A stretch of 64,000 nucleotides of DNA from Candidatus Uhrbacteria bacterium (GTDB lineage Bacteria; Patescibacteriota; Patescibacteriia; 2-12-FULL-60-25): the NCBI GenBank assembly GCA_003576745.1, contig QEVR01000002.1, positions 62,001 through 126,000 of the forward strand. The letters are read 5' to 3'. The notes beneath the pieces were generated by a model that had not been told where the DNA came from, searched no databases, and saw only the letters and a program-made list of their open reading frames with translations. Made by a program: the position numbers and the translations under genes. Within the stretch, counting starts at the first letter, position 1. Each line of letters starts with the position of its first letter. Shown here piece by piece: positions 3,120 to 41,530 of the stretch.

Positions 3120-3809
3120 TTATTGTATTTTGATTTTGTATTGCGGATTCAAACGGTATCCGTTTCCGTCCCGGCCGATAATAAGATCAGGTATGCCGAT
3201 CCGGTTTTTGGCTTTTCTATTTATTTCCAGCTTGGAATTTCTGATGGCCTGATTAGTGGTGCCTACCAGTGCCGCCAGATCGGCGGTCTTGATATAGCCC
3301 CTGCTCGAGCACAAAACCTTTATAAGTTTTTCCCGCATTTTTTCTTTATTCATCGGGTAACACTTTTTGTTATCCGAATCCAAATACAGATCGCCGTCCG
3401 GGGATAGACAGAGCACGGTTTCCTTAGTTTTCTTTTCTCCCTGCTTGGACCGTATCTTTTGGCCCTGCTCATAAAAACCCTGGGCTATGTCACGGCCGAT
3501 CTGCAAAGCTGTCTGCTTGCCGACTCGCAGTTCATCTTTCAATCTGGCGATGGTCTTGCTGGTTTCTTTTTCGTAGTTTTCAAGTCTGGCATCGGTCTTA
3601 TTGATCCTCTCCTGCAATTCCACAATCTTAGCCTCAAGGCGTTCGATAATTTCATCCGGATTTTGGATACCCGAATTTTCCAGAGCCTTTTTTACAATGC
3701 CTTTGGTAACGCCAAGCGAAAATCGCATCGTGGTACTCATCCCAACGGACCGGTTGACGTTGAATTTGTACTTGGTGGCCAGTGCGGCCTTTTTCATTTT
3801 CATAGTCAT
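3120..3809 (-). CDS. Coiled-coil plus winged-helix DNA-binding protein
   Basis: The frame allows starts at 3818 and 3809; I prefer MTMKMKKAAL at 3809, although neither has a convincing Shine-Dalgarno. Residues ~45-100 form a heptad-like coiled coil (IIERLEAKIVELQERINK..., then KTIARLKDEL). The C-terminal ~80 residues (REKLIKVLCSSRGYIKTADLAALVG and IPDLIIGRDGNGYRL) look like a winged-helix domain of the OmpR-type DNA-binding fold, with the wing ending in a GYRL motif. It probably binds DNA as an oligomer. It is divergent from the abiE operon, 102 bp away, so it could regulate either side. Confidence 0.6.
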   Translation of the reverse strand: MTMKMKKAALATKYKFNVNRSVGMSTTMRFSLGVTKGIVKKALENSGIQNPDEIIERLEAKIVELQERINKTDARLENYEKETSKTIARLKDELRVGKQTALQIGRDIAQGFYEQGQKIRSKQGEKKTKETVLCLSPDGDLYLDSDNKKCYPMNKEKMREKLIKVLCSSRGYIKTADLAALVGTTNQAIRNSKLEINRKAKNRIGIPDLIIGRDGNGYRLNPQYKIKIQ

Positions 3810-3842
3810 TTTTGGCACATGGCTTTTCCACCATGCTCGGCC

Positions 3843-3871
3843 TTGTGCTTATCTCAAGTATATCATATAAT
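3843..3871 (+). promoter_or_regulatory. Sigma70-type promoter of the abiE/defence operon
   Basis: TTGTGC (3843-3848) and a perfect TATAAT (3866-3871) are separated by 17 bp, upstream of the AbiEi start at 3912. It is the only strong promoter-like match I noticed ahead of the ten-gene plus-strand run. Confidence 0.65.
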
Positions 3872-3874
3872 TGA

Positions 3875-3905
3875 ACTGGAAATAACCTTAAACGATTATT
3901 CCAGT
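3875..3905. promoter_or_regulatory. abiE operator: Inverted repeat, candidate AbiEi operator
   Basis: ACTGGAAATAA (3875-3885) and TTATTCCAGT (3896-3905) are complementary apart from one extra A in the left arm. The repeat lies between the promoter's -10 box and the AbiEi start. Characterised AbiEi antitoxins bind inverted repeats at their own promoter and repress it, so this is a natural operator candidate. Confidence 0.55.
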
Positions 3906-3911
3906 CCATAT

Positions 3912-4511
3912 ATGGATAAAAAACCCGTAAAAGGTGAATATTTGGAGGTTTTATTGCGATCTCCCCGGACCGTCTTTTCGACCAAAGACGCAGCTTTGAT
4001 GTGGAGTGAGGAAAAGGAGCAGACCGTAACGGCCAGGTTGAACAAATACGTTAAGGCCGGAAAATTGATCCGCATCAGACGCGGCATTTACGCCAAGGAC
4101 AATAATTATGACCGCTTTGAGATGGCGACCAAGATTTACACGCCTTCGTACATCAGCTTTGAGACGGTCTTGACCCGGGCAGGAATAAATTTTCAGTACT
4201 ACGATTCAATTTTTGTCGCGTCATATGTAACCCGCGCGATCGAAGTCCCCGGACAAAAAATCTCTTTCATCCGGATGAAAGATTATGTCTTGAGCAATAC
4301 GGCCGGCATCGAGCACGCCGAAGGATACTCCATCGCCGGCAAAGAACGCGCATTTTTGGACAGAATTTACATCAGCAAGGACTATCACTTTGATCATTTG
4401 GATGTCTTGGATTGGGACAAGGTTTTCGGAATTTTGCCTGTTTATAACAACAAGCGGATGGAGAAAAAAGTCCGGGAATATTTCGGACATTATAAAAGCA
4501 CAAAAATATGA
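3912..4511 (+). CDS. abiEi: AbiEi antitoxin (type IV toxin-antitoxin)
   Basis: The 199-residue protein starts MDKKPVKGEYLEVLLRSP. The frame stays open far upstream, but that part is antisense to the neighbouring gene and not coding. The N-terminal ~60 residues form a winged helix (VFSTKDAALMWSEEK, then RLNKYVKAGKLIRIRRGIYA), the usual AbiEi DNA-binding domain. The C-terminal domain has the family pattern YTPSYISFETVL and AGKERAFLD. AbiEi represses its own promoter and counteracts AbiEii without a stable complex. The stop overlaps the AbiEii start in ATGA. Confidence 0.88.
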   Translation: MDKKPVKGEYLEVLLRSPRTVFSTKDAALMWSEEKEQTVTARLNKYVKAGKLIRIRRGIYAKDNNYDRFEMATKIYTPSYISFETVLTRAGINFQYYDSIFVASYVTRAIEVPGQKISFIRMKDYVLSNTAGIEHAEGYSIAGKERAFLDRIYISKDYHFDHLDVLDWDKVFGILPVYNNKRMEKKVREYFGHYKSTKI

Positions 4512-5203
4512 CACTGGATTACTCAAAGCATAAAAATATTCTGCTTCAGATTTTGAAGGACATCTATTCCGATACTTCCATTGCGCCGCATTTGGGTTTC
4601 AAAGGCGGAACGGCCGCTCTCTTGTTTTACGATTTGAGCCGTGATTCGGTTGACCTGGATTTTGATTTGCTTGACGAAACCAAAGAGCAGGCGGTGTTCG
4701 AAAAAATACAGAAGATAGTCGCAGGTTACGGGAAAGTCATCGACTCGCGGATTAAACGGTTTAACCTGATAAACATCATTTCCTACGACACCAGATCGCA
4801 AAACATCAAAGTCGAGGTTAACCGGCGTGATTTCGGATCAAAGTACGAACTGAAAACCCTGCTTGGAATCTCCATGCTGGTTATGGTGCGCGAGGATATG
4901 TTCGCCCACAAGCTTATGGCCATGCACGAGCGCGTCGGCAAGACGAGCCGCGACGTGTATGATGTCTGGTTTTTCCTGAAGAACAATTGGCCGATCAACA
5001 GAGAGATCGTTGAGCAGCGTTCCGGTAAAATGTTCAAGGAAGTTCTGCAGATCACGGCAGAGCAACTGGAACAAATGGACAATAAGAACATTCTGATCGG
5101 CCTGGGAGAATTCCTGACCGAACCGCAAAAAGACTGGGCCCGGGCAAAGCTGCGGACCGAGACGATCTTTCTGCTGAAAGCCCGTTTGGAGAGCGAAAAA
5201 TAA
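4508..5203 (+). CDS. abiEii: AbiEii toxin, nucleotidyltransferase
   Basis: This 231-residue protein carries the nucleotidyltransferase signature GFKGGTAALLFYDLSRDSVDLDFDL (read in two parts, residues ~28-52), with the SxDLDF metal-binding aspartates. The family pattern continues with LKTLLGISMLVMVREDMFAHKLMAM and RDVYDVWFFL, typical of AbiEii/AbiGii toxins. Related enzymes inactivate cell components by nucleotide transfer (tRNA in the MenT toxins). The overlapping antitoxin upstream supports the call. The next gene (Mod) starts 9 bp after the stop, so the toxin may be co-transcribed with the restriction system. Confidence 0.88.
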   Translation: MTLDYSKHKNILLQILKDIYSDTSIAPHLGFKGGTAALLFYDLSRDSVDLDFDLLDETKEQAVFEKIQKIVAGYGKVIDSRIKRFNLINIISYDTRSQNIKVEVNRRDFGSKYELKTLLGISMLVMVREDMFAHKLMAMHERVGKTSRDVYDVWFFLKNNWPINREIVEQRSGKMFKEVLQITAEQLEQMDNKNILIGLGEFLTEPQKDWARAKLRTETIFLLKARLESEK

Positions 5204-5212
5204 ATCAAACAT

Positions 5213-7735
5213 ATGCCAAGGAAATCGCCAAAAAAACAAGAAAAGGAAATAAAGATCGAGGCTTACTCGCATGCCGGTAAGAAGCGCAAGAATAATCCGC
5301 CGGTAGGTCTGGTTTCGAGTCAGACGGATAAGCTCAACGGCTATACCAAGTACGCGCACGATCCGTACATCGATCCGTATTTGAGCTGGGCCGGAAAAAA
5401 GGAAGGCCAGGAAGTGAATGTGCGCAACATAAGTTTGCACGTGCATGAGCGCATAGATTCTACGCGCGTTATTCGTGCATTCCTGAAAAAGAAAACCGAA
5501 CCGCGTCAGCAGCAACTTTCGCTGTTCCAGTCGCAGGAAAACACATTGCCGCTCGGCAAAGCTTTTGAATTTTACAGCCACGATCAGGACTGGACGAACC
5601 GACTTATCGCCGGTGATTCACTTTTGGTCATGAATTCGCTTCTCAAAAAAGAAGGCATGGCCGGAGAAGTGCAGATGGTCTATATCGATCCTCCCTACGG
5701 AATCAAATACAACTCAAATTTTCAGCCATTCATCAACAAGCGCGAAGTCAAAGACAACAACGACGCCGATATCCCGGCCGAACCGGAAACCATCAAAGCA
5801 TTCCGTGATACCTGGGAGCTCGGAATCCACAGTTATCTGACATATTTATACGACCGCCTTCTGCTGGCCAAAGAACTGCTGAACGAATCCGGCAGCTGCT
5901 TTGTACAGATAAATGATGAAAATGTCCATCACGTGAAAGAAATAATGGACGAAGTTTTCGGTAAGGATAACTTTGTAAGTTTAATTTCATTTGCCACAAC
6001 GAGCGGTTTTCAATCCAGTACTCTCTCCAGAGCTGGAGATTATGTCTGCTGGTACGCCAAAGATAAAAAGAAAATTAAATATCGACCTCTTTACCTATCA
6101 AAGGTTCTTGGCGAAGAAGGTGCGACCGGTTATGACTCCGTTGAATTGAAAGACGGCGCAATAAGATCGTTGACAAAAGAAGAAATAAAAAATCCAAGCA
6201 TACTCCCGGAAGGTTCAAGATTATTTGCAAAAGCAGATCTGACAAGTTCTGGTAAGGCCGGCGTTGATCAGGCTTTTGAGTTTGAGGGGAAAACTTATCG
6301 ACCAAACCCAAATTCCCATTGGAAGGCAAATTATCCCGACGGTATGCAGAGATTGGCTAACGCTAATCGTTTAGTAGTCGTTGGAAACACATTGCGCTAT
6401 AAGCGATATTTCGATGATTTTTCTTTATATCCGATAAACAACTTTTGGTCTGAACAGTTGTCTGAACAAAATAAGACTTATGTTGTTCAGACTTCAGAAA
6501 AAGTTATTGCTCGCTGTCTTTTGATGGCTACCGATCCGGGCGATCTTGTCATTGATCCGACGTGTGGATCAGGAACTACTGCATTTGTTGCGGAAAAATG
6601 GGGACGTCGCTGGATTTCCTGTGATACATCTCGTGTCTCAATCGCGCTTGCGAAGCAACGTCTGATGACGGCATATTTCGATTATTACAAACTGGCGCAT
6701 CAGGGAGAAGGTGTTTCCAGTGGATTCGAGTATAAGAAAGTTCCGCATATTACTCTTGGCAGCATCGCCAATAACGAACCGGCGGCAGAGGAAACTTTAT
6801 ACGACCAACCGGTTATGGATAAATCCAAAGTCCGCGTAACCGGACCGTTTACGGTTGAAGCTCTGCCATCGCTTCGCACTAAGCCGTTTGACGGTAAAGA
6901 GCCGAAGGTTGCGGCACAAGGAGAAGAGATCGCGCGGACCGGCGAGACGGCCAATCAGGCCGTATGGCGTGATGAGCTTAAGACGAGCGGTATCCGCGCA
7001 ACCGGAGGCAAGACCATAAACTTCTCGCGTATAGAACCAATGGCCGGAACGCGGTTTATTCATGCTGAAGCGGAAATTCTGGATGAAAAAGGTACAAACA
7101 AGAAAGCAGTCATCAGTTTCGGACCGGATTACGGCGCGCTCGAGCAGCGGCAGGTTGAGGAGGCCGTCAATGAGGCGCGTAAGCTTGCCGACAAACCCGA
7201 CTTTATAATCTTTGCCGCATTTCAGTTTGATCCGGAAGCTGCCAAAGACATCGATCATATTCAGTGGCCGGGCGTTACGGTGCTTAAGGCGCAAATGAGT
7301 GTCGATCTCCTTACGGCTGATCTGCGAAAGAAGCGGTCGTCCAATCAAAGCTACTGGCTTATCGGCCAGCCGGATGTTGAGGTTGTGAAAAATAAAGACG
7401 GCACATGTAAAGTCATCGTCCGCGGCTTTGATTATTACAATCCGGTAACCGGAGAGATTGATTTTGGCGACACAAGGCGCATTGCCATGTGGATGCTCGA
7501 CAGCGATTATGACGAGCAAAGCATCCTGCCCGAGCAGGTATTCTTCCCCATGAAAGACCCGAAGCACGATTGGACTGCGCTGGCCAAGACTCTGAACGGC
7601 GCAGTGGATCAGGATTTGATCGAGCTCTTCACCGGAGTCGAGTCTTTGCCGTTTGCCGCGGGAGAGCATAAAAAGATCGCTGTGAAAATCATCGACGACC
7701 GTGGCATTGAAAGCTTTGTTATCAAAAACCTATGA
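5213..7735 (+). CDS. Type III-like DNA adenine methyltransferase (Mod)
   Basis: The 840-residue protein has motif IV DPPYGIKYNSN at residue ~159 and motif I DPTCGSGTT at ~448, the motif order of beta-class N6-adenine methyltransferases such as type III Mod subunits. The segment between them (residues ~200-430) would contain the target-recognition domain. An unusually long C-terminal part (residues ~500-840) is shared with Mod proteins paired with BPTD_3080-type restriction enzymes, as far as I recall. It overlaps the Res gene by 4 bp (ATGA). It should set the methylation that protects host DNA from Res. Confidence 0.9.
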   Translation: MPRKSPKKQEKEIKIEAYSHAGKKRKNNPPVGLVSSQTDKLNGYTKYAHDPYIDPYLSWAGKKEGQEVNVRNISLHVHERIDSTRVIRAFLKKKTEPRQQQLSLFQSQENTLPLGKAFEFYSHDQDWTNRLIAGDSLLVMNSLLKKEGMAGEVQMVYIDPPYGIKYNSNFQPFINKREVKDNNDADIPAEPETIKAFRDTWELGIHSYLTYLYDRLLLAKELLNESGSCFVQINDENVHHVKEIMDEVFGKDNFVSLISFATTSGFQSSTLSRAGDYVCWYAKDKKKIKYRPLYLSKVLGEEGATGYDSVELKDGAIRSLTKEEIKNPSILPEGSRLFAKADLTSSGKAGVDQAFEFEGKTYRPNPNSHWKANYPDGMQRLANANRLVVVGNTLRYKRYFDDFSLYPINNFWSEQLSEQNKTYVVQTSEKVIARCLLMATDPGDLVIDPTCGSGTTAFVAEKWGRRWISCDTSRVSIALAKQRLMTAYFDYYKLAHQGEGVSSGFEYKKVPHITLGSIANNEPAAEETLYDQPVMDKSKVRVTGPFTVEALPSLRTKPFDGKEPKVAAQGEEIARTGETANQAVWRDELKTSGIRATGGKTINFSRIEPMAGTRFIHAEAEILDEKGTNKKAVISFGPDYGALEQRQVEEAVNEARKLADKPDFIIFAAFQFDPEAAKDIDHIQWPGVTVLKAQMSVDLLTADLRKKRSSNQSYWLIGQPDVEVVKNKDGTCKVIVRGFDYYNPVTGEIDFGDTRRIAMWMLDSDYDEQSILPEQVFFPMKDPKHDWTALAKTLNGAVDQDLIELFTGVESLPFAAGEHKKIAVKIIDDRGIESFVIKNL

Positions 7736-10434
7736 GCCAGAAACATATCGACAAACTGATCGTCAACGACGCATACACCGAGCCCACGCATCACTGGGCG
7801 TATTTGCGCGAAAAACAGGAATTTGAATTGCGCGAAGGACGCCGCAAAGCCGGATACTGGAAACTCTCCGGTGTCGGCCGCAAAGGAACAGACGATCTCG
7901 GCGAATTCGTGGAATTGGCTTTGGTCAATCAGGTCCGGCCTCGTGTTGCGGAATGGAAAGCAAAAGGTTATCCGAATGTAACCGGTACGACGAGAAAACT
8001 TTTGGAATTCTGGAACGATACGACCCAGCGTCAGTATCCGTTTTTCTGGTGCCAACTTGAAGCAATCGAGACGGCGATCTGGCTTACCGAGGCCTCCCCG
8101 AGCGAGAAAACCGGTATCACCATTCCGGTTGAGGATGAAGGATGGCAGCGGCAATGTCTCAAAATGGCAACCGGGACCGGCAAAACGGTAGTCATGTCCA
8201 TGCTTATCGCCTGGCAGGCTTTGAATAAGATCGCAAACAACGGCGACGCACGATTTTCAAAAAATATTCTTATTATCGCTCCCGGACTTACCGTGCGTGA
8301 CCGTTTGCGTGTTTTGAAACCGGAACGGGAGGATAACTTTTACCAGAAATTCAATATCGTGCCATCCTCGATGTGGCAGGAACTCTTGGACGCAAAAATT
8401 GTCATCGAGAACTGGCATACCCTCGCGCCGATCAATGAAAACTACGGACCCAAGGTTGTGAAGAAGGGACCGGAAAGCGACGAAGCATTTACGCGCCGGG
8501 TTGTGCCTGATTTCGGCGGTGCGCAGAATATTTTGGTCATCAACGACGAAGCGCATCACTGTCACCGTCCTTCTTTCGACGAGGAGAAAGAGGAACAGGA
8601 AAAAGCGACCATCTGGATCAGCGGCATTGACCGTATTCACCGGGCCCGGGGGCTCTTGCGCGCATACGACCTCACAGCTACTCCCTTCCGGCCGACCGGC
8701 AGGAATAATCAGGGTGAGCAGCTCTTTACCTGGATCGTGAGCGATTTCGGGCTGAACGATGCCATTGAAAGCGGACTGGTTAAAACTCCGAAAGTTGCCG
8801 TGCGCGACGATGCGTCTATCGGTGCTGATTTCAAATCAAAACTTTTCCATATTTATCCTGAAGTCAAAGATGATGTAAACCGCAATGTCGATCCGCAGGA
8901 AGGATTACCGGATTTGCTCACGCAGGCAATCGATATTCTCGGCGCGGACTGGCTTAAGGAAAAAGAGGACTGGCAAAAATTGCGTCCGACCATCAAAACG
9001 CCGCCGGTCATGATCATGATCTGCAATAAGACCAATACGGCAGCGCGGATCGAATACGCCATAAAAAACGGTCATGTAATTACCCGCGAACTTTCCGATA
9101 AGGAAGGACTGCTTCGCATTGACCAAGATGCGCTGGATAAGGTTGAAGCGGATGAGGCCGGAGAAATGACAAAGAATAAGCGCGAGCTTGCCGAATCCAT
9201 CCGCGAGAAAGTGAATACCGTCGGCAAAGAAGGCAAACCCGGTGAAAAAGTGCAGTGTGTCATCGGTGTAAACATGCTCTCGGAAGGTTGGGACGCGCAG
9301 ACTGTTACCCATATTCTCGGTATACGCGCATTTACCAGCCAGCTTTTGTGTGAGCAGGTTGTCGGCCGCGGATTGCGCCGGATTTCCTACGACAACCTTT
9401 CCGAGCCGGAGTACGTGACCGTATTCGGCGTGCCGTTTACCTATCTGCCGGTCGAAGAAAAACCCGGACCTCCGCGACCGCCGGTTGCCAAGACCAAAAT
9501 AGAACCCATTACCGATCGGAAGGCTCTCGAAATCCGCTGGCCGCACGTTTTGCGCGTGGATTACAAGCTCAATTATTTCCTTGAGCTTGATTGGGACAAA
9601 CTGACGCCGCTTGAGCTTTCTCCGGAAGAAACCCGAACGGTCGTTGAAGTCGCGCCGGTTATCGACAATAAACCCGATCTAACCAAACTTACCGAACTTG
9701 ATCTGAAGAAACTCGGCGATGAGAAAAGATTCCAAACTGTTAAATTGCAGGCGGCCGTCCGTTTGCGCGAACGGTTCGCCAAAAACTGGGACGGTGATCC
9801 GGCCAGCCATATCAGCCAGCTTCTGCGGATGATCGACGAATTTACAGAATCAAAGAAGCTCGTCATAAAAGTTCCGAAATTTGAACATACGGAACTGCTT
9901 CGGCGTATTGTGGTTGCGCTCAACATTCAGCGAATTGTTGAACATCTTTCGGCTTTTATAAAAAGCTCGAGCACGGAAGATCCGGTTGCCATATTTGATT
10001 CCGTGCGTCCGGTACGCAGCACCGCCACAGCTCCGGTCTGGTACACGAGCAAGCCGACGCAGCCGGTTCTAAAAAGCCAGATCAGCCACATCGTGATTGA
10101 CAGCAAATGGGAAGGCAGTACGGCATTCGAGTTGGAACGCGACCGCATCCCCGGCCTTGTGTCCTGGGTGAAAAATGATCATCTCGGTTTTGAGATTTAT
10201 TACCTCTGGAAAGGCAAAGTCCATACGTACTACCCGGATTTCATCATGAAATTCGAGGGCGACAGATATGTGATGATGGAAGTCAAAGGACAGAAGACCG
10301 AGCAGGATGAAGCCAAATGGGCGGCCGCCGAGGAATGGATTCGCGCCGTCAACCTTACCGGCAATTTCGGCACATGGAAATTTGCCGCAATCGAAAAGCC
10401 GAAGGATTTGTTTGAGGCCGTTAAAGATATCTGA
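7732..10434 (+). CDS. Type III-like restriction endonuclease (Res), BPTD_3080-type
   Basis: This 900-residue protein is a superfamily 2 helicase-nuclease. Walker A (MATGTGKTVVMS) lies near residue 145, the DEAH box (INDEAHHCH) near 270, and motifs V/VI (SEGWDAQTV, EQVVGRGLRR) near 510-545. A PD-(D/E)xK nuclease follows at the C-terminus: YYPDFIMKF near residue 834 and MMEVKGQK near 847, with K850 as the motif lysine. The enzyme would translocate on DNA using ATP and cleave unmodified targets. It is translationally coupled to Mod and followed 2 bp later by vsr. Confidence 0.9.
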   Translation: MSQKHIDKLIVNDAYTEPTHHWAYLREKQEFELREGRRKAGYWKLSGVGRKGTDDLGEFVELALVNQVRPRVAEWKAKGYPNVTGTTRKLLEFWNDTTQRQYPFFWCQLEAIETAIWLTEASPSEKTGITIPVEDEGWQRQCLKMATGTGKTVVMSMLIAWQALNKIANNGDARFSKNILIIAPGLTVRDRLRVLKPEREDNFYQKFNIVPSSMWQELLDAKIVIENWHTLAPINENYGPKVVKKGPESDEAFTRRVVPDFGGAQNILVINDEAHHCHRPSFDEEKEEQEKATIWISGIDRIHRARGLLRAYDLTATPFRPTGRNNQGEQLFTWIVSDFGLNDAIESGLVKTPKVAVRDDASIGADFKSKLFHIYPEVKDDVNRNVDPQEGLPDLLTQAIDILGADWLKEKEDWQKLRPTIKTPPVMIMICNKTNTAARIEYAIKNGHVITRELSDKEGLLRIDQDALDKVEADEAGEMTKNKRELAESIREKVNTVGKEGKPGEKVQCVIGVNMLSEGWDAQTVTHILGIRAFTSQLLCEQVVGRGLRRISYDNLSEPEYVTVFGVPFTYLPVEEKPGPPRPPVAKTKIEPITDRKALEIRWPHVLRVDYKLNYFLELDWDKLTPLELSPEETRTVVEVAPVIDNKPDLTKLTELDLKKLGDEKRFQTVKLQAAVRLRERFAKNWDGDPASHISQLLRMIDEFTESKKLVIKVPKFEHTELLRRIVVALNIQRIVEHLSAFIKSSSTEDPVAIFDSVRPVRSTATAPVWYTSKPTQPVLKSQISHIVIDSKWEGSTAFELERDRIPGLVSWVKNDHLGFEIYYLWKGKVHTYYPDFIMKFEGDRYVMMEVKGQKTEQDEAKWAAAEEWIRAVNLTGNFGTWKFAAIEKPKDLFEAVKDI

Positions 10435-10436
10435 TT

Positions 10437-10853
10437 ATGGACAGACTTACGCAAAAACAACGCAGTGAAAACATGTCCCGCATCAAAGGAAAGAATACGG
10501 GCCTGGAAAAGACGTTCAAAAAAATCGTCCGCAGTTCCGGAATAAAAGGTTTCAGGTCACATGCGAATGTCGCCGGGAAGCCGGACATATATTTCCCGAA
10601 AGCAAAAATTGCCGTTTTTATCGACGGTTGCTTTTGGCACGGCTGCCCGCGATGCGGTTCCTTGCCGGCTACAAACCGGAACTTCTGGAAAAAGAAGATT
10701 GAACGCAATATATCGAGGGACAAAACCGTACGCACCGAACTGCGCAAATCAGGAATCAAGGTCGTAAGATTTTGGGGTCATGAGATAAACCGTAACCCCG
10801 GCCGATGCTCGGAAAAATTATCCGCGGCATTTTCCGGTTTAAGCGGAATATAA
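10437..10853 (+). CDS. vsr: Very short patch repair endonuclease (Vsr)
   Basis: The 138-residue protein is complete and has Vsr hallmarks: RLTQKQRSENMSRIKGKNT at the N-terminus, KPDIYFPKAKIAVFIDGCFWHGCP in the core (catalytic Asp in FxDGCFWHGC), and IKVVRFWGHEI near the end. Vsr nicks next to T:G mismatches created by deamination of 5-methylcytosine, so it usually accompanies a C5 methyltransferase. Here the Dcm-type gene lies 4.2 kb downstream in the same operon, separated by two signalling-type genes. Confidence 0.93.
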   Translation: MDRLTQKQRSENMSRIKGKNTGLEKTFKKIVRSSGIKGFRSHANVAGKPDIYFPKAKIAVFIDGCFWHGCPRCGSLPATNRNFWKKKIERNISRDKTVRTELRKSGIKVVRFWGHEINRNPGRCSEKLSAAFSGLSGI

Positions 10854-10857
10854 ATTT

Positions 10858-13575
10858 ATGCAAAGAAACTGCCTGGTGCTTACACAATCAAGGGAAAACA
10901 GCGAATACAACGACTTTGTCGGGCGCTTTTATCATTTCCCGGGTAAGTACATCAGCCAGTTCAAAAATACACCGGTTGAGTTTGTCTATTATGAACCGGC
11001 AAAGAGCGGCGAGGGCGTCTATTTCGGCTACGGTAAAATTCTGGCACAGCCGACAAAGGACAAGAAAGACGCCGATCATTATTTCGTGGAGATTACCGAC
11101 TATAAACCGTTTGTCGAGCCGGTACCGTTTAAGGACGATAAGGGAAAAATCCGTGAGTCGGCATCGCCTCACTACAACGCCCAGAATGCAGTGCGTAAAA
11201 TTCCGCCCTTGCTGCTGGACGAAATATGTCTGGACGGAAAAATCAGATTGAACTTCAGAGCGGATGCGCATCTTATCAAAGTCCTCGGAGAGCAGCTTAT
11301 CGCTTCGGAAAAAGTCGGTATCCTGGAGCTCATCAAAAACGCATATGACGCTGGTGCATCGTATTGCCGTGTACGTATTGAAAATATTCCCTCATTAAAA
11401 GCGGTCGACAAATCCGAATATCTTTTCCCGGACCTGCCTGGCCCGGTAATTGTGATCGAGGATGACGGTTCCGGTATGACACGCGATGTAATCGAGAACG
11501 GCTGGTTGCGTCCGGCTTCAACGATAAAGACCGCGGTTAAAGAAAGCATAAGGCAAGAGCGGCAAAAAGCAGCCGCAGAGGGCAAGCTCGGATCGTATGA
11601 CAAACTGGTTTCGGAAATAAAAAAGGAACGCGGCGGCCGGATCCCCTTGGGAGAAAAGGGTGTCGGAAGATTTGCGTCACACCGGCTCGGACGCCGATTA
11701 TTGCTTAAAACAAAAGTGAGTGAGCTCGATTACGAATATCTGCTTGAAGTTGATTGGGATAAGTTTGAAGCCGGAGAAGACGGTGCAAAAGATTTGGAAA
11801 CCGTCGGAGTAAGTCTGACACGTCAAAGTCCGTCGCGTGATTACGGCAAGAAGGGATCAGGAACACAATTGGTTATTTACGGCAGCAGAGACGGATTCAC
11901 ATGGGATGCGGAGACCGTGGAAGAGCTGCACCGTTCCATCAAAAGTCTGAATTCTCCGAATCCGTCACCGAAAAATACAAAGGCCGGACAGGGTTTTAAT
12001 GCATACCTGGAATGCCCCCAGATAGGTATGTTGCCAAGCGATAATCCGACGGACGCATTTCCGGCGACATTTTCGTTTGACGGCCTGGTGGATGAAAACG
12101 GTATCATGGAATACTCTCTGAAATTTCAGCCGCCCAAAACCGTTCCGATGTCTGCGGAGGAAACTGAAGAAAAGAACTATGACCTGCGTAAAGCGAAACT
12201 CGATTACTGGGCGAAGCAGGACGGAGACGGATTGCGTAAACCGGAATGCGGACCTTTCTATATGCACGTTGAAGTCTGGTACCGCAAGGACCCGTGGATC
12301 AGCAGTACAGGACCCGAAGGAAAGGATTTCATAGATTACCTGACTAAATTCGGCGGTATTTCCATATTCCGCGACGGCATCAATATTTTCCCCGCAGAAT
12401 GGGGTGCGGAAACTGATTGGCTGGATTTAAGCAAACGGCATATCAAACAAGGCTTCAGAATATCTTATTACAACATTCTGGGGAATCTGGAAGTCGATCA
12501 GGCAAAAAACATCGATCTTATCGATAAAACAAACCGTGAAGGCCTGATAGAAAACAGGGCATTTAAAGATTTGACGCAGCTTGTACACGCCGTCGTTGCC
12601 ACGGTCATAGAGACAAAATTCATAGGCAAACGCGACGAATATAACGATCTGACGGAAGACATTGTCCGTGATCCGAAAGCCCTGAAGGATTACGCAAAAC
12701 AGGGAGCTGCTTTGGTGGGACAGATCAAAGAAAAATATCCGGTCGATGAAGACCCGTATAAAATACTTGATCCGATCGGCAAAAAAAGCGAGCGCGGAGA
12801 AAAATTGGTCAACCTGTCCAACTCGCTGAAAAATCTGCAAAAGAGCATTGACCTGATTCAGGAGGCACAGGATTTGCTGACCGAGCAGGCGGGATACGGC
12901 ATGGCGGTCGCGGTGTCGGTGCATGAAATCGCCAAAATCGCCGCAAACTTTTATGCAGGCGTGTCGCATATGTTGAAGTCCGAGAAGCCAGATTTGGAAA
13001 AGCTGAAAAATCTCAAAGAGGCTTCCGCTTCCCTGCAGTCCGAGCTGAAACGGCTTAGCCCGCTCCGTGCAATAAAAAACGAAGCGCAGGCCGAATTTGA
13101 AATAACCAAACCGATCGGATACGTAGTCGATGTATTCCGTTCACGGCTTGAAAAAATCGGCATAGACGTTGAGGTAAACGCCAAGGAGAGTTTCCCTGTA
13201 TACGGACGTTACGGCGCTCTTATTCAGATATTCTCCAACCTGTTCGACAACAGCTCTTACTGGCTGGGAATGGCGGCACGCAAAAACCGCAAAATAAAGA
13301 TCCGCATCGATCCCAAACATCGGACGGTAACCGTAGCCGATTCGGGACCCGGAATCGACGAAGTTATAATGCCGTATCTGTTCCAGCCGGGTTACTCCTT
13401 GAGAGTGCCGCCGAGCGGTCTCGGCCTTTATATATGCAAGCACTACATGCAAAGCATGAAAGGAGACATCTATCTCACCACGGACCGGGAACGGATATCG
13501 GCCATGACCGGCGCGCAATTTACCCTTGATTTCGGCAAGGTTGCATCCGAACGTCCGATCAGCGAAAAGAAATAA
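10858..13575 (+). CDS. Sensor protein: EVE-like domain, Hsp90/MutL-type GHKL ATPase and histidine-kinase-like module
   Basis: A 905-residue protein with two separate GHKL ATP-binding sites. Residues ~1-90 (SEYNDFVGRFYHFPGKYI, VYYEPAK, YFGYGKI) resemble the EVE/PUA-like domain found in front of some HNH restriction enzymes. Residues ~135-340 are a MutL/Hsp90-type ATPase: N-box ELIKNAYDA (N161), DDGSGM (202-207), GEKGVGRF (265-272). Residues ~650-905 look like a histidine kinase core: H-box SVHEIAK (H689), N-box FSNLFDNSS (N794/N798), DSGPGI (828-833), F-box LFQPGYS, and SGLGLYICK. No membrane segment is apparent, so it is probably cytosolic. The next gene encodes a receiver-like protein, which suggests phosphotransfer. 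The role in defence is inferred from its place between vsr and dcm. Confidence 0.85.
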   Translation: MQRNCLVLTQSRENSEYNDFVGRFYHFPGKYISQFKNTPVEFVYYEPAKSGEGVYFGYGKILAQPTKDKKDADHYFVEITDYKPFVEPVPFKDDKGKIRESASPHYNAQNAVRKIPPLLLDEICLDGKIRLNFRADAHLIKVLGEQLIASEKVGILELIKNAYDAGASYCRVRIENIPSLKAVDKSEYLFPDLPGPVIVIEDDGSGMTRDVIENGWLRPASTIKTAVKESIRQERQKAAAEGKLGSYDKLVSEIKKERGGRIPLGEKGVGRFASHRLGRRLLLKTKVSELDYEYLLEVDWDKFEAGEDGAKDLETVGVSLTRQSPSRDYGKKGSGTQLVIYGSRDGFTWDAETVEELHRSIKSLNSPNPSPKNTKAGQGFNAYLECPQIGMLPSDNPTDAFPATFSFDGLVDENGIMEYSLKFQPPKTVPMSAEETEEKNYDLRKAKLDYWAKQDGDGLRKPECGPFYMHVEVWYRKDPWISSTGPEGKDFIDYLTKFGGISIFRDGINIFPAEWGAETDWLDLSKRHIKQGFRISYYNILGNLEVDQAKNIDLIDKTNREGLIENRAFKDLTQLVHAVVATVIETKFIGKRDEYNDLTEDIVRDPKALKDYAKQGAALVGQIKEKYPVDEDPYKILDPIGKKSERGEKLVNLSNSLKNLQKSIDLIQEAQDLLTEQAGYGMAVAVSVHEIAKIAANFYAGVSHMLKSEKPDLEKLKNLKEASASLQSELKRLSPLRAIKNEAQAEFEITKPIGYVVDVFRSRLEKIGIDVEVNAKESFPVYGRYGALIQIFSNLFDNSSYWLGMAARKNRKIKIRIDPKHRTVTVADSGPGIDEVIMPYLFQPGYSLRVPPSGLGLYICKHYMQSMKGDIYLTTDRERISAMTGAQFTLDFGKVASERPISEKK

Positions 13576-13580
13576 AACAT

Positions 13581-15029
13581 ATGCGTTACTCCGTCTGCAT
13601 TATTGATAACGATATTCCGGCCGCCGGGACACAGGCTCAGGCATCGGGGATAAAAGATTCCGAACTTTTGAATGCGTCAAACCTGCAGCTTCTCTTGAAT
13701 CAGGAAACGTGGACGGATGAAGTGATCAAAAACCTTACACAGACCCTGTTGGATCAGAAAGATACGGATGGCATAAGTCCGAAGTGGGAAGTTTTCGCTT
13801 TTACCAATCCGTCATTTTACATAAACACAATAGATAACGGATTTTTCCGTTCCGATCTGGTGGTGTTCGATTGGGAGTATCCCGGTGCGCAGGCCGGTTC
13901 CGGTACCGACTCGGAAAGCATACTCAAGGAAATTCTCGACAGAACATTTTGTCTCGTTTTTATATTTTCAAAAGCCGACAAAAAAGCCGAGATCGAAGCC
14001 ATCCTCGCCAAGCCGGAATTCCAGCAGTACAAGGAACGTCTTGAGTACCTAGACAAAACGGTAGGCGGAGTCGATCAGACAAATACACTTCTTCAAAAGG
14101 CCGAACAGATGTATGCGAATAATTTTTCGTTCAAATTCGCAAGTACTCTACGGAAAAAGGCCGTACAAAGCGCCGACAAGATTCTGTCGGACATGGGTAA
14201 GGCGTCATTGAACGATGTCAAAAACCACATCGTCGTAGGAGACGGCGGTAAAAAGGATTTTGTCGATTTTCTCACTGAGCGGTTCAGAACCTCTCTCGCC
14301 GGAAAGGAAATTTATGATCTGGTCGATGAAATTCCGGAACCTGCAGCAGGCACGCCCGCGCCGGATGAATCGTTGGCGGCAAAAGTCTGGTCGTATCGTC
14401 TTTATTTTCACCAACAGACAGGTGATGAAATGGTCAGACGCGGCGACATCGTCAAAATAAACGGCAATTATGCCCTGGTATTGTCAGCTGACTGCGATTT
14501 GGGCTACTTCTGGAAGAAAAATCTTGGTATAATAAATACGGTGGCGTTGCATGAAATCGACCAGACCAACTCCACACTTAAGGATTGGCTTACGCTGTGC
14601 GTAAAGCCCAATAAAATTCCCGGCAAGATTTCGAGTCTGTTGGGAAGAATCGGCGAGCTGTCCGAAGGTCCCTTTGTGCTCCCGTTCGTTCCGTTAAACG
14701 GCGGTACAAAAAATTTTATTGCCGTCCCGAAAGATCTGGTATCGACCAGAATAACGTTGCCGTCGGGATGGAGCAGCTTCACGGACAGACAGAAAAAAGA
14801 AGATCCGATGAAATATTCTTATTGGTCCGGAGCCGAAAGACTTTGCACCATATCGGAACCTTTTCTTACTCCCGTCATCCAGCACGTTTTGAATACTATG
14901 GGAGGCAACGGTGTTCCGGACTATCCGGAACACATGAAAGATATTTTGAAAAAAGTTCTTGACGATTTTACTGCCGCAGGAGCTGTCGCTTCCAAGCCGG
15001 CAACATCGTCAACCCCGACAGCAGTATGA
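13581..15029 (+). CDS. Receiver-like partner protein with unknown C-terminal effector domain
   Basis: The 482-residue protein begins YSVCIIDNDIP, where D9 and D11 fit the acidic pocket of a response-regulator receiver. SDLVVFDWEYPG places a candidate phosphoacceptor at D97, S130 (FIFSKAD) fits the conserved Ser/Thr, and K149 fits the conserved lysine. The spacing between D11 and D97 is longer than usual (about 86 instead of 45 residues), so this is an atypical receiver. The remaining ~300 residues match nothing I know; they contain SYRLYFHQQTGDEMVRRGDIV and LVLSADCDLGYFWKK, and end in a Ser/Thr/Pro-rich tail. The start is 5 bp after the kinase-like gene and the end overlaps dcm by 4 bp. Confidence 0.65.
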   Translation: MRYSVCIIDNDIPAAGTQAQASGIKDSELLNASNLQLLLNQETWTDEVIKNLTQTLLDQKDTDGISPKWEVFAFTNPSFYINTIDNGFFRSDLVVFDWEYPGAQAGSGTDSESILKEILDRTFCLVFIFSKADKKAEIEAILAKPEFQQYKERLEYLDKTVGGVDQTNTLLQKAEQMYANNFSFKFASTLRKKAVQSADKILSDMGKASLNDVKNHIVVGDGGKKDFVDFLTERFRTSLAGKEIYDLVDEIPEPAAGTPAPDESLAAKVWSYRLYFHQQTGDEMVRRGDIVKINGNYALVLSADCDLGYFWKKNLGIINTVALHEIDQTNSTLKDWLTLCVKPNKIPGKISSLLGRIGELSEGPFVLPFVPLNGGTKNFIAVPKDLVSTRITLPSGWSSFTDRQKKEDPMKYSYWSGAERLCTISEPFLTPVIQHVLNTMGGNGVPDYPEHMKDILKKVLDDFTAAGAVASKPATSSTPTAV

Positions 15030-16051
15030 AAAAATATTTTGCAATAGATTTATTTTCCGGTTGCGGCGGCCTGTCCCAAGGACTGAGGACTGCCGGGTTT
15101 GAAGTGGCGGCCGCTTTTGACAACGACAAGGATTCCGTTGCGACTTATAAACTCAATCATCCCGATACAAAAGTATTTGAAGGCGATATCCGCGATGTGA
15201 ACACGGCCGACGTGAAAAAAATCCTGAACGGAAGCCCGCTTCATCTTTTGGCAGGTTGCCCGCCGTGCCAGGGGTTTTCATCCATGCGCCGGCTCAACAA
15301 GAAACGCAGCAAGCGTGACAATCGGAATAATCTGGTTTTGGAATATCTGCGTTTTGTAAAGGAACTGAAGCCGCTTACGATCATGATGGAAAATGTTCCC
15401 GGTCTGGTTAATTACACGCAATTTAAATACGTAGTCCGGGAATTGGATAAGCTGGGGTATAACCCGAAATTTAAGCCGGTAAGCATCCAGCAATACGGTG
15501 TGCCGCAGCGACGCAAGCGGCTGGTGGTTGTCGGATCATTGCTCGGGGATATCGATATCGCGCCTGCGACCGGAGAAAAAGTCACCGTGCGGGACATGAT
15601 AGGCCATTTAGAGTCCGTAGCAAAAACAAAAGATCCTGTTCACAAAATAGTCGCGTCTCATACTCAGGCGGTCATGGAGCGCATAAAGGCCACACCTAAG
15701 AACGGAGGCAGCCGCAACGATTTGCCCAAAAAATTCGAACTCGAATGTCATAAAGGAAAAGATGTCGGATTCAATGACGTGTATGGCAGGCTGCGCTGGG
15801 ATGATTACTCCACAACAATCACCGGCGGTTGCCTGAATCCGTCAAAGGGTCGTTTTCTGCACCCGAAAGAAAATCGCGCCATCACGGCCCGGGAAGCGGC
15901 ACTGCTGCAGACATTTCCGCCAGAGTATAAGTTTCCGGAAGATGCCAGCAAAACATCGATTGCTCTTCAGATCGGCAATGCTTTGCCGCCGAAGTTCAGC
16001 TACGTTCAATCGGCAAATATCATGAATCACCTGCAGGCTGCGGGGATATAA
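15026..16051 (+). CDS. dcm: DNA cytosine-5 methyltransferase (Dcm family)
   Basis: This 341-residue protein has all main C5 methyltransferase motifs: DLFSGCGGLSQGL (motif I, residues ~5-17), AGCPPCQGFS (motif IV, catalytic Cys of PCQ near residue 80), MMENVPGLV (VI), QYGVPQRRKRLVVVG (VIII), and QIGNALPPKF (X). Between VIII and X lies a target-recognition region of ~130 residues. It methylates cytosine C5 in a sequence I cannot predict. Its deamination products would be substrates for Vsr in the same operon. It overlaps the receiver-like gene by 4 bp. Confidence 0.95.
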   Translation: MKKYFAIDLFSGCGGLSQGLRTAGFEVAAAFDNDKDSVATYKLNHPDTKVFEGDIRDVNTADVKKILNGSPLHLLAGCPPCQGFSSMRRLNKKRSKRDNRNNLVLEYLRFVKELKPLTIMMENVPGLVNYTQFKYVVRELDKLGYNPKFKPVSIQQYGVPQRRKRLVVVGSLLGDIDIAPATGEKVTVRDMIGHLESVAKTKDPVHKIVASHTQAVMERIKATPKNGGSRNDLPKKFELECHKGKDVGFNDVYGRLRWDDYSTTITGGCLNPSKGRFLHPKENRAITAREAALLQTFPPEYKFPEDASKTSIALQIGNALPPKFSYVQSANIMNHLQAAGI

Positions 16052-36065: not shown

Positions 36066-36174
36066 CCCTTGACGCATTGCCTTTTCCAGCGTATCGTCTT
36101 GCGCCTCCCCGAAATGGAAGCACTGGATACTCGGAACGCACGTTGCACAGCCTACAAGGAAGGAACGGAACGCA

Positions 36175-37464
36175 ATGCAGATACACCCAGCCCGTTCGCG
36201 GAACCCTGAAAACATCCAGAGGGAAAAGGATGGTGAAGGAATCCCGCCTGTTTTGTCGCCGGTCTCACCGCATCCGCAGAGTTGGCCGCCTGAAATTCTG
36301 CGCTTCCTCGATCAGGAGCGACAGGAAAGCGCCGCATTCGTGAAAAACGAACCCGTCCGATCGGCGTGGCTTGCCAGACACCTGTTCCGCCCGAGCGCGG
36401 ATTTGTGCGTGGACGGGAGGGTCTCGGACTTCTCCGAAGCCCTGGGACTCCCCATCGGTATCCTGAAGCCGTATCGCTCCGCCGGTGCCAAGAGTTCGTC
36501 GCTCGAATCGTACATTTACGCTGTACGTCTGCGCGACTTCAACCGCAAAATCCGGGCTGTACGTCTGGAGAACGGCGAGATGCATCGTATGTCGCAGCTC
36601 CACTTTGCCACCGTGCATTATTCGGCGAGCCATCCGGATCACTCCTGCGCCGCGTGGGGAAATCACACGGGCAGAGCCGAATTCGCCATGCAGGAGCATG
36701 CGGCCGCGCTCAATGCAGACTTTGCCGGAAGCATTGTCTCGCTCGTAACGCTCATCGACACGGACCTGGACGCCCTCACGATTCTCGCGCCGCGCGGAAA
36801 ACTGCAGACAGCGGAAATCGCGGACATGCGGATGGAAGGGGACGATCTCCTTCAGGCGATTCGCGGACATCTGCTTGATCTGTTCCCGTACAGCTGGGAG
36901 CCGCTCGCAAGGTTGCCGCAGGATCATCAGGAAGCGTTCCATCATGAGCTCGCGGTCCTCGTACACGCAAATGTCGAGTTTGTCCGGAACGTGAAGTCCA
37001 CGGGACGTCCCGTAGAGCTTCTGGAGCACCAGGAACGCCTCATCTTCATCGGCAGGCCCGGCGAAACCCGCGAACACAACACGACATTCCTCATCGGCGA
37101 CTTCGAAAAAGAGGCGCTCAAAAAGGACTTCGCTATCGCGCTCGCCATCGTCGCCAAGAATCTTCTTCGTGACGCCATCCGGTCCGGCAATGAGAACTGG
37201 AAAATTCCCGTCGTCATCAGCGTTCCCTACGATGAAGACGAGCGCGAGCTCACCGTCCGGTACGCGCGCGGCATTCGGCACACGCTCGAGAGGGAGGGGA
37301 CGAATGTCCCCGAAATCGGTCTGAATCTCCTCACCCACGCCAAGAACATCCAAGACGATTTCCCGGAATGGGTCATCGATCACTGCAGCCGCATCGGCGA
37401 ACGCATTTCCTGGTGCGTCACCGTGAACGACCGGAAAACGAGATCCTTCATCCCCGTAGACTAA
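36175..37464 (+). CDS. CsoSCA-like (carboxysomal-type) carbonic anhydrase
   Basis: The 429-residue protein has the beta-class carbonic anhydrase zinc pattern: CVDGR at residues 78-82 (Cys, Asp, Arg), then H148 and C158 in TVHYSASHPDHSCAAWG. The following LVTLIDTDLDALTI (residues ~190-203) matches the conserved GLDTDTDAI-type segment of CsoSCA, as I remember it. The C-terminal half (~220-429) would be the degenerate repeat of the catalytic domain seen in that family. CO2 hydration is therefore likely. I see no RuBisCO or carboxysome shell gene in the window, so the physiological use is unclear. The start is ATG 36175; a terminator follows. Confidence 0.78.
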   Translation: MQIHPARSRNPENIQREKDGEGIPPVLSPVSPHPQSWPPEILRFLDQERQESAAFVKNEPVRSAWLARHLFRPSADLCVDGRVSDFSEALGLPIGILKPYRSAGAKSSSLESYIYAVRLRDFNRKIRAVRLENGEMHRMSQLHFATVHYSASHPDHSCAAWGNHTGRAEFAMQEHAAALNADFAGSIVSLVTLIDTDLDALTILAPRGKLQTAEIADMRMEGDDLLQAIRGHLLDLFPYSWEPLARLPQDHQEAFHHELAVLVHANVEFVRNVKSTGRPVELLEHQERLIFIGRPGETREHNTTFLIGDFEKEALKKDFAIALAIVAKNLLRDAIRSGNENWKIPVVISVPYDEDERELTVRYARGIRHTLEREGTNVPEIGLNLLTHAKNIQDDFPEWVIDHCSRIGERISWCVTVNDRKTRSFIPVD

Positions 37465-37470
37465 ATCTCA

Positions 37471-37502
37471 AAGCCCGTCCGGACGCATATCCGGACGGGC
37501 TT
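37471..37502. terminator. Intrinsic terminator
   Basis: AAGCCCGTCCGGA and TCCGGACGGGCTT form a perfect 13 bp stem with a 6-nt loop, then TCTTCT, seven bases after the CsoSCA-like stop. Confidence 0.85.
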
Positions 37503-37550: not shown

Positions 37551-37904
37551 GTGATAAAGACGCTCGGAACAGCCGTCCTCCTTTCCTTCGGGCTTATGGT
37601 TTTGCCATGCCCGAAAGGAGCAATGGCGCAGGAAATACATGGCCGGCACCTTACCGTGGCAGCGTTTTCGCAATTCCATACAATTTCCACGGAAGTTACG
37701 TGTTGCGTACGCCCCCACTCTCCAGCCCCTGTTGCCGAGAGCGTTCTCCCGGCTCCTTTTTCATCCGAACGCGTGCCGGCCGCCGTGACAGGTTCCTATC
37801 CCGTTGCGAATAACTTGATCGCATTCATCCGTCCCGCACGAGAACCCTGCACATATCCGACGTATACGAAATTCGAATGCAGGCATGGTGTGAAACGCGA
37901 ATAG
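37551..37904 (+). CDS. Small secreted Cys-containing protein
   Basis: From GTG 37551, 117 residues with a clear signal peptide (IKTLGTAVLLSFGLMVLP...AMAQ). The mature part has four cysteines (TCCVRPH, EPCTY, FECRH) and is rich in His and Pro. It sits 43 bp upstream of the copper operon and may bind metal, but this is a guess from context. No family recognised. Confidence 0.6.
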   Translation: MIKTLGTAVLLSFGLMVLPCPKGAMAQEIHGRHLTVAAFSQFHTISTEVTCCVRPHSPAPVAESVLPAPFSSERVPAAVTGSYPVANNLIAFIRPAREPCTYPTYTKFECRHGVKRE

Positions 37905-37947: not shown

Positions 37948-39309
37948 ATGGCCACTCTTTATTGGCGCGTGACTGGCATGACATGTCCGTCATGCGAACG
38001 CATTATTGAACAAGAACTCCTCGCGCTTCCGGGTGCCGAAGAGGCGGAAGTTTCGCTCCGACAGAGGAGGGCGGCTGTCCGTTTCTCGGACGGCGCGGAC
38101 ACCCCGAATCTCCAGCATCTCTATCAAACATTGAAACAACATGGATATGCGCTTACGCCGGAATCCGAACGCGCAGAGTATCCGCAGATAGATTGCGCGA
38201 TTCCGGTACGAACCCCGATCCGCCATCGCATACGCCGAGCGCTCGTCGCGCTCGCGCTCACGGGGCTCGTCGCTCTTCTCATCTGGAAACCGCTCACCGC
38301 GTCCATTCCATCTATTTCAAGCGGGTCATCCTTCGGCGCCATGCTGTTCTTCGGTATTCTGGCATCCGTATCATCCTGCCTTGCCGCAACCGGTGGATTT
38401 CTTCTCGCGTATACGGCAAAGACGACAACGGCGCTTCAAGCCGTCGCCGTTCATATGGGCAGACTCGCGGCATTCGTCCTTGGAGGCGGCGTTCTCGGCG
38501 CGCTCGGGAGTTCGCTCCCCTCGCTTTCCGGAAGCGCGTACGGCGCGCTCGCCCTCGTGCTCGGCATCGGCTTTCTCGTGGTAGGACTGAATCTGCTCGA
38601 CCTCTCGCCCTCGCTTGCATCTTTCGGCGTACGTCTCCCAAAACGGGTTTCCGGTATTGCCGATCGGTTGCAACAATCGAAAAAACCGTATGCGCCGTTT
38701 GCCGTAGGAGCCGCGACCTTCGTGCTCCCGTGCGGGTTTACGCAAACCGCTCAGGCGCTCGCGCTCGCATCCGGCAGCGCAGAGAGCGGCATGCTCATGC
38801 TCGGAGCATTCGCCCTCGGCACTCTTCCCGTCCTTACGGGCGTCACAGCATTCGGACGAGCGGCCGGCGTCGCAAAACAGCAGGTATTCCGGCTCGCAGC
38901 CGGGGCCATGCTCTTTTTCTTCGCGTTCGGACAAATCGACGGAGGTCTGACACTCCTCGGGTCGCCCGTTACGCCTGGGACTTTCCTCTCCCGTACAGCG
39001 CCAAAAAACGCCTCGGCGGCCACGGCGCAAAAAAAGGACGGCGAACAGCTCGTCCGTATGACCATTGCCAACGGCACATATCAGCCGAATAATCTTATTG
39101 TCCAGGCCGGCGTTCCGGTACGCTGGGAAATCGAGGGGCAGGATATCTACGGTTGTGCCAGCGACATCACCATCCCGTCATTGGGAATCTATTCGCGCCT
39201 GAACAAAGGAAAAAACATCCTTGCATTCACGCCGCCGGACAGGCCCGGAACGATTCCCTTCAGTTGTGGAATGGGAATGATTCGTGGAACCATAACCGTC
39301 GTGAACTAG
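37948..39309 (+). CDS. HMA - SafE-like transporter - cupredoxin fusion protein
   Basis: The 453-residue protein joins three modules. Residues 1-70: HMA metal-binding domain with GMTCPSC (C13, C16). Residues ~95-345: about seven membrane segments of the SafE/DsbD-like family with [14 protein letters not shown] and [19 protein letters not shown] (conserved Cys). Residues ~365-453: a cupredoxin-like beta domain, with Cys and Met ligands in YGCASDI and FSCGMGM. It probably passes Cu(I) or Ag(I) across or to the membrane surface. It starts the copper operon, one base before CopA. Confidence 0.85.
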
Positions 39310-39310
39310 T

Positions 39311-41530
39311 ATGAAGAGAATTTCCATCCCCATACGTGGCATGCACTGCGCAAGCTGCGCGCTCACGATACAAAAATCCTTGGAGGCCGTTCATGGCGTA
39401 TCTGCCGCAAGCGTAAATTTCGCCACGGAACGAGCGAATATTGAGTTCGACGAATCGCTCGCGGCGCGGGAGCATCTTGAGAATGCCATTCGGGAAAGCG
39501 GCTATGACGTCGTTGAAATGGAAACTGTCCCGGAGCCGGAACGGATACATGCCGGGCACGCTACCAGCGGGTCAGGGCATACGGGTCACGACGGTTATAT
39601 TGGGAGAAACGGAATCATCGCCGCGCTCATTCTCATGATCCCGCTTCTTACGAGCATGTTCATCCGACCGGATATCGGCATATTGTTCGGCTACCCCGCG
39701 TTTGACATCGTCTCGCTTGCCATTGCCTGGACGCTTGTTGCCTGGTTCGGACGCAAATTCCACATAGGAACACTTCGGGAGCTCAAACATGCCAGAGCAA
39801 CCATGGACACGCTCGTGTCCGTGGGAACGGGTGCGGCGCTCCTCTGGAGCACGTATGCAATGTTCGCCGGCGGGGAAGTGTATTTCGAGGTCGCCGGCAT
39901 CATTATATTCTTCCTTTTGCTGGGAAAATACCTAGAAGCACGACAACGAATGAAAGCCGGCGCCGCCATCCAGGCGCTGCTCGGCCTGCACGCCAAGCTC
40001 GCGCATCGCGTTACATCCACCGGGGAAATTGAGGATGTCGATCCAAGCATCCTCCGGCCGGGAGATTCCTGTCTGGTCAAACCTGGGGAGAGAATCCCCA
40101 CGGACGGGATCGTGGTCGACGGACATTCGAGTATTGATGAGTCCATGCTCACCGGAGAACCCATTCCTGTCGAGCGCGAAAAGGGCGATCAGGTATACGG
40201 CGCAACTGTCAACGGGACGGGAACATTCACCATGAACGTAACCGTCGAGCCCGGAAAATCGGCTCTCGACGCCATTGTCGCGACCGTCGAACACGCGCTC
40301 TCGACAAAATCGCCCGTTGAGCGGCTGGTTGATACGATCTCTTCCGTCTTTGTTCCCGTGGTCATTCTTCTTGCGGCCGCAACCTTAATCGTCTGGCTGT
40401 TTCTGACGCAAAACCCCGGAGAAGCCATCCGCCATGCCGTCGCCGTCCTTATCGTGGCATGCCCGTGCGCGCTCGGTCTCGCAACTCCCGCCGCGATTAT
40501 GGTCGGCACGGGGGCGGGCGCAAAGCGAGGCATTCTCGTGAAAGACGGAAGCGCACTCGAAGCGGCACGCGACATCAATATGGTCATTTTCGACAAAACG
40601 GGCACACTCACCGAGGGAAAACCGAGCATCAGCGACGTTATCGAGAATCGCGAAGCGCCGGGCGGAAAACGACTTGATCTGCTTCGCGTTGCCGTATCGC
40701 TCGAGTCGACATCAGAGCATCCGTTGGCCTCCGCGGTTCTGCGATACGTTAAAGAACACGCGCCCGCGGAGATTGTTCCGGAACGAATCAAGGATTTTCA
40801 GGCGATAGCCGGAAAAGGCGTTCAGGGGATGTTTGACGGCAACAGAGTGGCTCTTGGAACCGAGGCATATATGCACGATCTGAATGTCATGATCCCGAAA
40901 GATCTCGAAACGAGCATCGCTGATCTTCGTCGCCACGCGAAAACTGTGATCTTCGTATCTCGGGAAAAAACGCTTCTCGGAGTTCTCGCCGCCGTCGACA
41001 GCATAAAAGACGACGCCATAGCCGCAGTAAAAAAACTTCAAGAAAACGGCATCGATGTCGCGCTCCTTACCGGCGACCATCTCGCGACGGCGAATGCCGT
41101 TGCGGAAACGCTCGGCATTCGAACGGTTTTCTCGGATGTTTCCCCGACAAACAAAGCCGAAATCGTCAAGTCCATGCAACAGGATGGAAAACGCGTCGCC
41201 TTTGTCGGAGACGGACTGAACGATGCGCCGGCTCTTGCTCAGTCCAACCTTGGAATTGCCGTGGGAACCGGAACGGACGTCGCCATTGCCACGGGACAAA
41301 TCGTGATTATGGGAGGATCGCCCATGAAGGCCCCAGATGCCATTCAGCTCGCGCGGACCACTTTCCGCGCCGTTAAACAAAACCTGTTCTGGGCCTTTAT
41401 CTATAATATCGTTCTCATTCCTCTCGCCGCGGTCGGTATTGTGAATCCGATTCTGGCATCATTTGCCATGGCCATGTCGAGCGTAAGCGTCCTCACGAAC
41501 AGCTTGAGAATATCGCGCAAGATGCGGTAG
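39311..41530 (+). CDS. copA: Copper-translocating P-type ATPase
   Basis: The 739-residue protein begins with an HMA domain (GMHCASC, C13 and C16). It has the CPC transmembrane metal site ([12 protein letters not shown], residues ~382-393), phosphorylation motif DKTGTLTEG (Asp ~427), TGE in the actuator ([10 protein letters not shown]), the HP motif (SEHPLA) and [10 protein letters not shown]. All functional residues are present. It exports Cu(I) or Ag(I) from the cytosol using ATP. It is one base downstream of the fusion transporter. Confidence 0.95.

Follow-up and report, generated by a model that had tools for sequence, protein, structure and literature searches.

What use does a cell without a detected carboxysome have for a CsoSCA-like carbonic anhydrase? 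The question is raised by one gene in the window, the whole stretch of 64,000 nucleotides of Candidatus Uhrbacteria DNA that was analysed, and it comes with a further puzzle: why a minimal cell in which neither carbamoyl-phosphate synthase nor biotin carboxylase was detected keeps a carbonic anhydrase at all. The genome comprises 1.06 Mb in four contigs and is 97% complete. An initial annotation had placed the DNA in a likely CPR genome, and it does share its genus with a Ca. Uhrbacteria MAG (contig MGEH01000037). Judged from sequence comparison and a predicted structure, the gene product is probably a zinc carbonic anhydrase of the CsoSCA2 ("non-cso") type that is soluble and works independently of any carboxysome.

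The open reading frame begins with the ATG at 36175 on the forward strand and runs to a stop codon ending at 37464. It encodes 429 amino acids, and an orthologue in the same genus is 46% identical to its product. The features of the locus are as follows.

36156..36165, + strand: AAGGAAGGAA, a plausible ribosome-binding site 9 nt 5' of the ATG, read from the sequence
36175..37464, + strand: coding sequence of a CsoSCA-like (CsoSCA2-type) carbonic anhydrase, 429 aa, from homology, predicted structure and the same-genus orthologue
36289..36378, + strand: short N-terminal domain of two predicted helices, codons 39-68, from the model
36385..36810, + strand: catalytic beta-CA domain, codons 71-212, from the model and a PF20686 match over 78-209
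36406..36420, + strand: CVDGR, codons 78-82, with putative zinc ligand C78 and the predicted D80-R82 dyad, from conservation and alignment
36616..36618, + strand: putative zinc ligand His, codon 148, invariant in 23 CPR relatives and aligned with H242 of the Halothiobacillus neapolitanus (Hn) enzyme
36646..36648, + strand: putative zinc ligand Cys, codon 158, invariant in 23 CPR relatives and aligned with Hn C253
36919..37461, + strand: C-terminal pseudo-catalytic domain, codons 249-429, without a conserved zinc-ligand set
37471..37502, + strand: 13-bp hairpin 6 nt 3' of the stop codon, with a T-poor tail, from folding energy against shuffles

CVDGR, H148, C158 and IDTDLDA (residues 194-200) are present in the order first noted, H148 and C158 both lying within HYSASHPDHSCAAWG. 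The His–Cys spacing had been described as one residue shorter than in CsoSCA, correctly: it is 10 here and 11 in the H. neapolitanus enzyme. Other members of this gene's own subfamily also have 11, and many other CPR relatives have 10. In an AlphaFold2 model of the protein (pLDDT 82, pTM 0.81), residues 1-31 are disordered, with pLDDT <50, and the N-terminal helices span residues 39-57 and 59-68.

Assignment to the CsoSCA family is supported by profiles and by fold. The protein matches PF20686 (CsoSCA_cat) with 26.2 bits (E 6.5e-6, cut-off 21.5) and scores 14.6 bits with TIGR02701, the equivalog for carboxysomal CsoSCA, far under its cut-off of 241. PF08936, the profile against which a search had been proposed, is now confined to the C-terminal domain (CsoSCA_C); it is not reached by the protein alone and is matched by 2 of the 23 relatives (best E 0.07). 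A profile built from the 23 CPR relatives finds the CsoSCA chains of the PDB with E about 1e-23 and spans both domains, other beta-CAs lying far behind in the same search (best E 6e-5). The model matches 8thm, 9g4t and 2fgy with Z scores of 29.7, 28.6 and 28.1 over 337-343 residues, from model residue 33 or 34 to 429; Z is 18.7 against a tandem red-algal beta-CA and about 10 against single-domain beta-CAs. C78, H148, C158, D80 and R82 align with C173, H242, C253, D175 and R177 of H. neapolitanus CsoSCA, the zinc ligands of which are given in PMC12646314, and the HYS and DTD motifs are retained along with the D-R dyad. Identity to characterised enzymes is about 20%.

The structural match starts at model residue 33-34, which corresponds to H. 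neapolitanus residue 125; thus the protein has neither the Rubisco-binding tail nor the greater part of the N-terminal domain. What the model shows in their place is the CsoSCA2 type of N-terminus, two short helices without hook insertion or Rubisco-binding tail. The C-terminal domain retains an H285-x-E-R...G motif common to carboxysomal CsoSCA, and H285 is the only conserved Cys or His of this domain in the 23-sequence alignment. A single zinc site, with one active and one defunct domain, would fit both the fold match over the two domains and the want of a ligand set in the second. The gene has the CsoSCA2 features examined and fails those of the carboxysomal enzyme.

Profile searches of the whole genome gave no match to the BMC shell domain and none to the RuBisCO large subunit, which indicates use outside a carboxysome and upholds the earlier view of an orphan gene. 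Absence in these searches means no clear match, as the fast first pass missed the carbonic anhydrase gene itself with PF20686. Pro_CA and Pro_CA_2, the other carbonic anhydrase families covered, likewise had no match in the genome.

The usual role of a cytoplasmic carbonic anhydrase in heterotrophs is to provide bicarbonate for biosynthetic carboxylases, and supply to carbamoyl-phosphate synthase, acetyl-CoA carboxylase or similar enzymes is accordingly the first alternative to be weighed. It is also one of two uses that the initial annotation suggested; for the other, an interaction with a host, the analysis gave evidence neither in favour nor against. The CPSase_L_D2 domain, common to carbamoyl-phosphate synthase and the biotin carboxylases, has no match in the genome despite positive results for all 14 controls, and supply to the main carboxylating enzymes is therefore unlikely, PEP carboxylase and PurK being outside this test. 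In the relatives, 20 of 41 family genomes give weak CPSase_L_D2 matches, which lie in frames of 303-461 aa; three of these matches were inspected and are of the D-Ala ligase or RimK type. TsaC, a bicarbonate user, is present in the genome, which speaks for the proposal; the lack of a detected ATP-grasp domain of the carbamoyl-phosphate synthase or biotin-carboxylase kind weakens it. As the main role of the enzyme, biosynthetic supply seems unlikely.

A soluble CsoSCA2-type anhydrase would work as follows. One zinc per chain would be held by C78, H148 and C158, with water as the fourth ligand, and the D80-R82 dyad would keep the aspartate off the metal, as in a type I site of the beta class. 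The zinc-hydroxide would hydrate CO2 reversibly, with bicarbonate as the product. A pseudo-dimer would be completed by the second domain, a degenerate copy in which no zinc ligands are conserved. With no Rubisco-binding tail and only a small part of the N-terminal domain, the enzyme would be free in the cytoplasm. Its role may be rapid equilibration of CO2, bicarbonate and protons, that is pH and CO2 balance, together with a supply of bicarbonate to what few users the cell has, TsaC being one of them.

Dependence on RuBP can be considered from two positions. Where H. neapolitanus has D409, the Cyanobium enzyme, which depends on RuBP, has Lys469 (PMC11086599). E297 aligns with D409, hence with the Cyanobium K469 position, and is acidic like the H. 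neapolitanus residue, at about 20% identity; equivalence of R101 with R196 requires the alignment to be shifted by two residues. The places of the R196-D409 pair of H. neapolitanus are probably taken by R101 and E297, from which activity without RuBP would be predicted, at low identity; the enzyme would then probably be RuBP-independent.

The distance from characterised enzymes may leave room for a changed substrate, and a hydrolase of beta-CA fold acting on COS, CS2 or a similar compound is a second alternative. Hydrolases of COS and CS2 have the same fold and appear as weak matches in the 23-relative profile search, and the CPR family is strongly diverged. Set against this, the best full-length match is CsoSCA, the D-R dyad and the HYS and DTD motifs are retained, and sulfur genes were not seen among the neighbours. 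Such a function is very unlikely.

Relatives occur elsewhere in the CPR. There are matches in 17 of 57 related genomes and, by profile, in 15 of 380 genomes sampled across the phylum. An alignment-based profile scan of genome contigs yielded six Patescibacteria loci, where a single-sequence scan of the same collection gave no match; in viral contigs, plasmids and phages a search for the family also gave none. Where a locus carries a public name, it belongs to Ca. Uhrbacteria or to unnamed Patescibacteria, and in two genomes CsoSCA-like genes stand in tandem. At least four divergent subfamilies can be distinguished: A, to which this gene belongs (7 rows, support 100/100); B, with the motif CMDEK or CMDER; C, with CMDGRV...GCAGW; and D, mostly with CMDGRL...GC[AKR]GF. 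Further, more divergent subfamilies exist beside them. Across the 23 CPR sequences C78, D80, H148, C158, T196, D197, N266, H285 and G293 are invariant.

Three subfamily B sequences (L067, L068 and L069) have Lys in place of the dyad Arg, giving CMDEK, and have also lost the DTD motif's first Asp; their activity is possibly altered. The change to Lys, and the fact that one domain is already degenerate, could point to an inactive or regulatory CO2/bicarbonate sensor that has kept the fold and the zinc site; all catalytic residues are intact in the present gene, and we give this reading scant credence. A remnant of a lost alpha-carboxysome, to which the shared fold might point, has a negligible chance and was rejected: RuBisCO was found in 0 of 41 family genomes, the Uhrbacteria members lie outside the carboxysomal clade in a tree of CPR members with three carboxysomal sequences, and other CPR families retain several subfamilies whose active sites are conserved.

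The chromosomal surroundings of the carbonic anhydrase gene were compared across the family. The gene is followed by a small ORF, an HMA/DsbD/cupredoxin protein and a Cu-type P-ATPase, in the same order in the same-genus locus L028; the small ORF at 37551 and its L028 counterpart have no clear relation (E 0.028). The two larger genes form a copper-handling pair at 37948-41527 of the window, a fused HMA-DsbD_2-cupredoxin membrane protein and a heavy-metal P-type ATPase. The hairpin at 37471..37502 (dG -26.3 kcal/mol, z -6.5 against shuffles) is absent from the listing of a consensus scanner and is the probable transcript end; its strength and its place after the stop codon suggest a transcript separate from the downstream genes. 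A functional link to the copper genes was not adopted, given this hairpin and the different slot occupied by relatives elsewhere. Elsewhere in the window, 3459-16048 holds a defence-like island of AbiEi/AbiEii, type III modification and restriction proteins, a Vsr nuclease and a cytosine methyltransferase, with an HATPase/receiver-domain pair between its genes.

In other Uhrbacteria genera a gene of subfamily A, B or C occupies a common slot upstream of mreB, flanked by tgt and a UvrD-PD(D/E)XK gene (L025, L026, L027, L030, L062, L066, L067, L068 and L069), some of these contigs stopping before one flanking gene. Members in the slot occur with or without Pro_CA_2. A Pro_CA_2 gene adjoins the CsoSCA-like gene in four Uhrbacteria genomes (L030 among them), or 4 of the 7 that have both; genome-wide co-occurrence is not significant (Fisher p 0.28), and it is the adjacency alone that is notable. 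Two subfamily D genes, in two distant CPR genomes, lie directly 3' of the ATP-synthase epsilon gene (L073:6122-7760 and L077:6387-8005, the latter after a gap of about 10 nt), an arrangement that hints at a proton or pH link. Upstream of another CsoSCA-like gene, L076:5023-5985 encodes a 321-aa protein with a Tat-like N-terminus and the beta-CA-like motifs CVEDR and HKECGA; the same protein in L024 has no Pfam match.

A wider scenario may be sketched, though we hold it to be rather unlikely as a whole. The CsoSCA fold in Uhrbacteria and other CPR bacteria would be a cytoplasmic CO2/bicarbonate module that is old and diversifying, kept by cells that have hardly any bicarbonate consumers; its subfamilies would replace one another in one slot, some working with Pro_CA_2, in the service of pH or CO2 balance and not of biosynthesis, and carboxysomal CsoSCA would be a later recruitment. 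If the CPR forms are active and basal, they bear on the origin of the alpha-carboxysome enzyme.

That an orphan CsoSCA would be something new is not supported: stand-alone relatives were already known, from Uhrbacteria among others. The name CsoSCA2 was coined for homologues outside carboxysome loci in PMC9164163 (2022), which lists them in Uhrbacteria, with 3 genomes, and in five further CPR phyla and suggests that CsoSCA arose from CsoSCA2; PMC11086599 (2024) describes a "non-cso" clade that has a single zinc site and lacks the hook. The literature on CsoSCA2 yielded no functional follow-up or biochemical data on any member. The present gene supports the existence of CsoSCA-type enzymes not tied to carboxysomes and belongs to compact, diverse CPR examples of them; what is added is evidence against a biosynthetic role and a picture of the family in the CPR.

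Compared with carboxysomal CsoSCA (H. neapolitanus 2FGY and 9G4T, Cyanobium 8THM), the protein shares the fold from the short N-terminal helices on, the active site, and a degenerate C-terminal domain with a GH-x-ER...G motif; it differs in lacking the Rubisco-binding tail and a cso operon, and in being shorter by about 90 residues ahead of the shared region. Pro_CA_2 (PF20393), a putative carbonic anhydrase, has similar beta-CA-like C-x-D-x-R and H-x-x-C motifs but is a single domain of about 125 residues. The closest likeness is to the CsoSCA2 or "non-cso" proteins (PMC9164163, PMC11086599), which also stand outside a carboxysome locus, keep the zinc ligands and dyad, have a degenerate second domain, and have an N-terminal domain cut to about 40 residues in two short helices. 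Unlike reported non-cso genes, this one was not seen near hydrogenases or permeases, and it belongs to a CPR set of several deep subfamilies, the CsoSCA2-type sequences compared here being those of the CPR. Beyond the prior reports are the CPR subfamilies themselves, at least four in number, the tgt-UvrD slot that three of them share, and the adjacency to Pro_CA_2 in four genomes.
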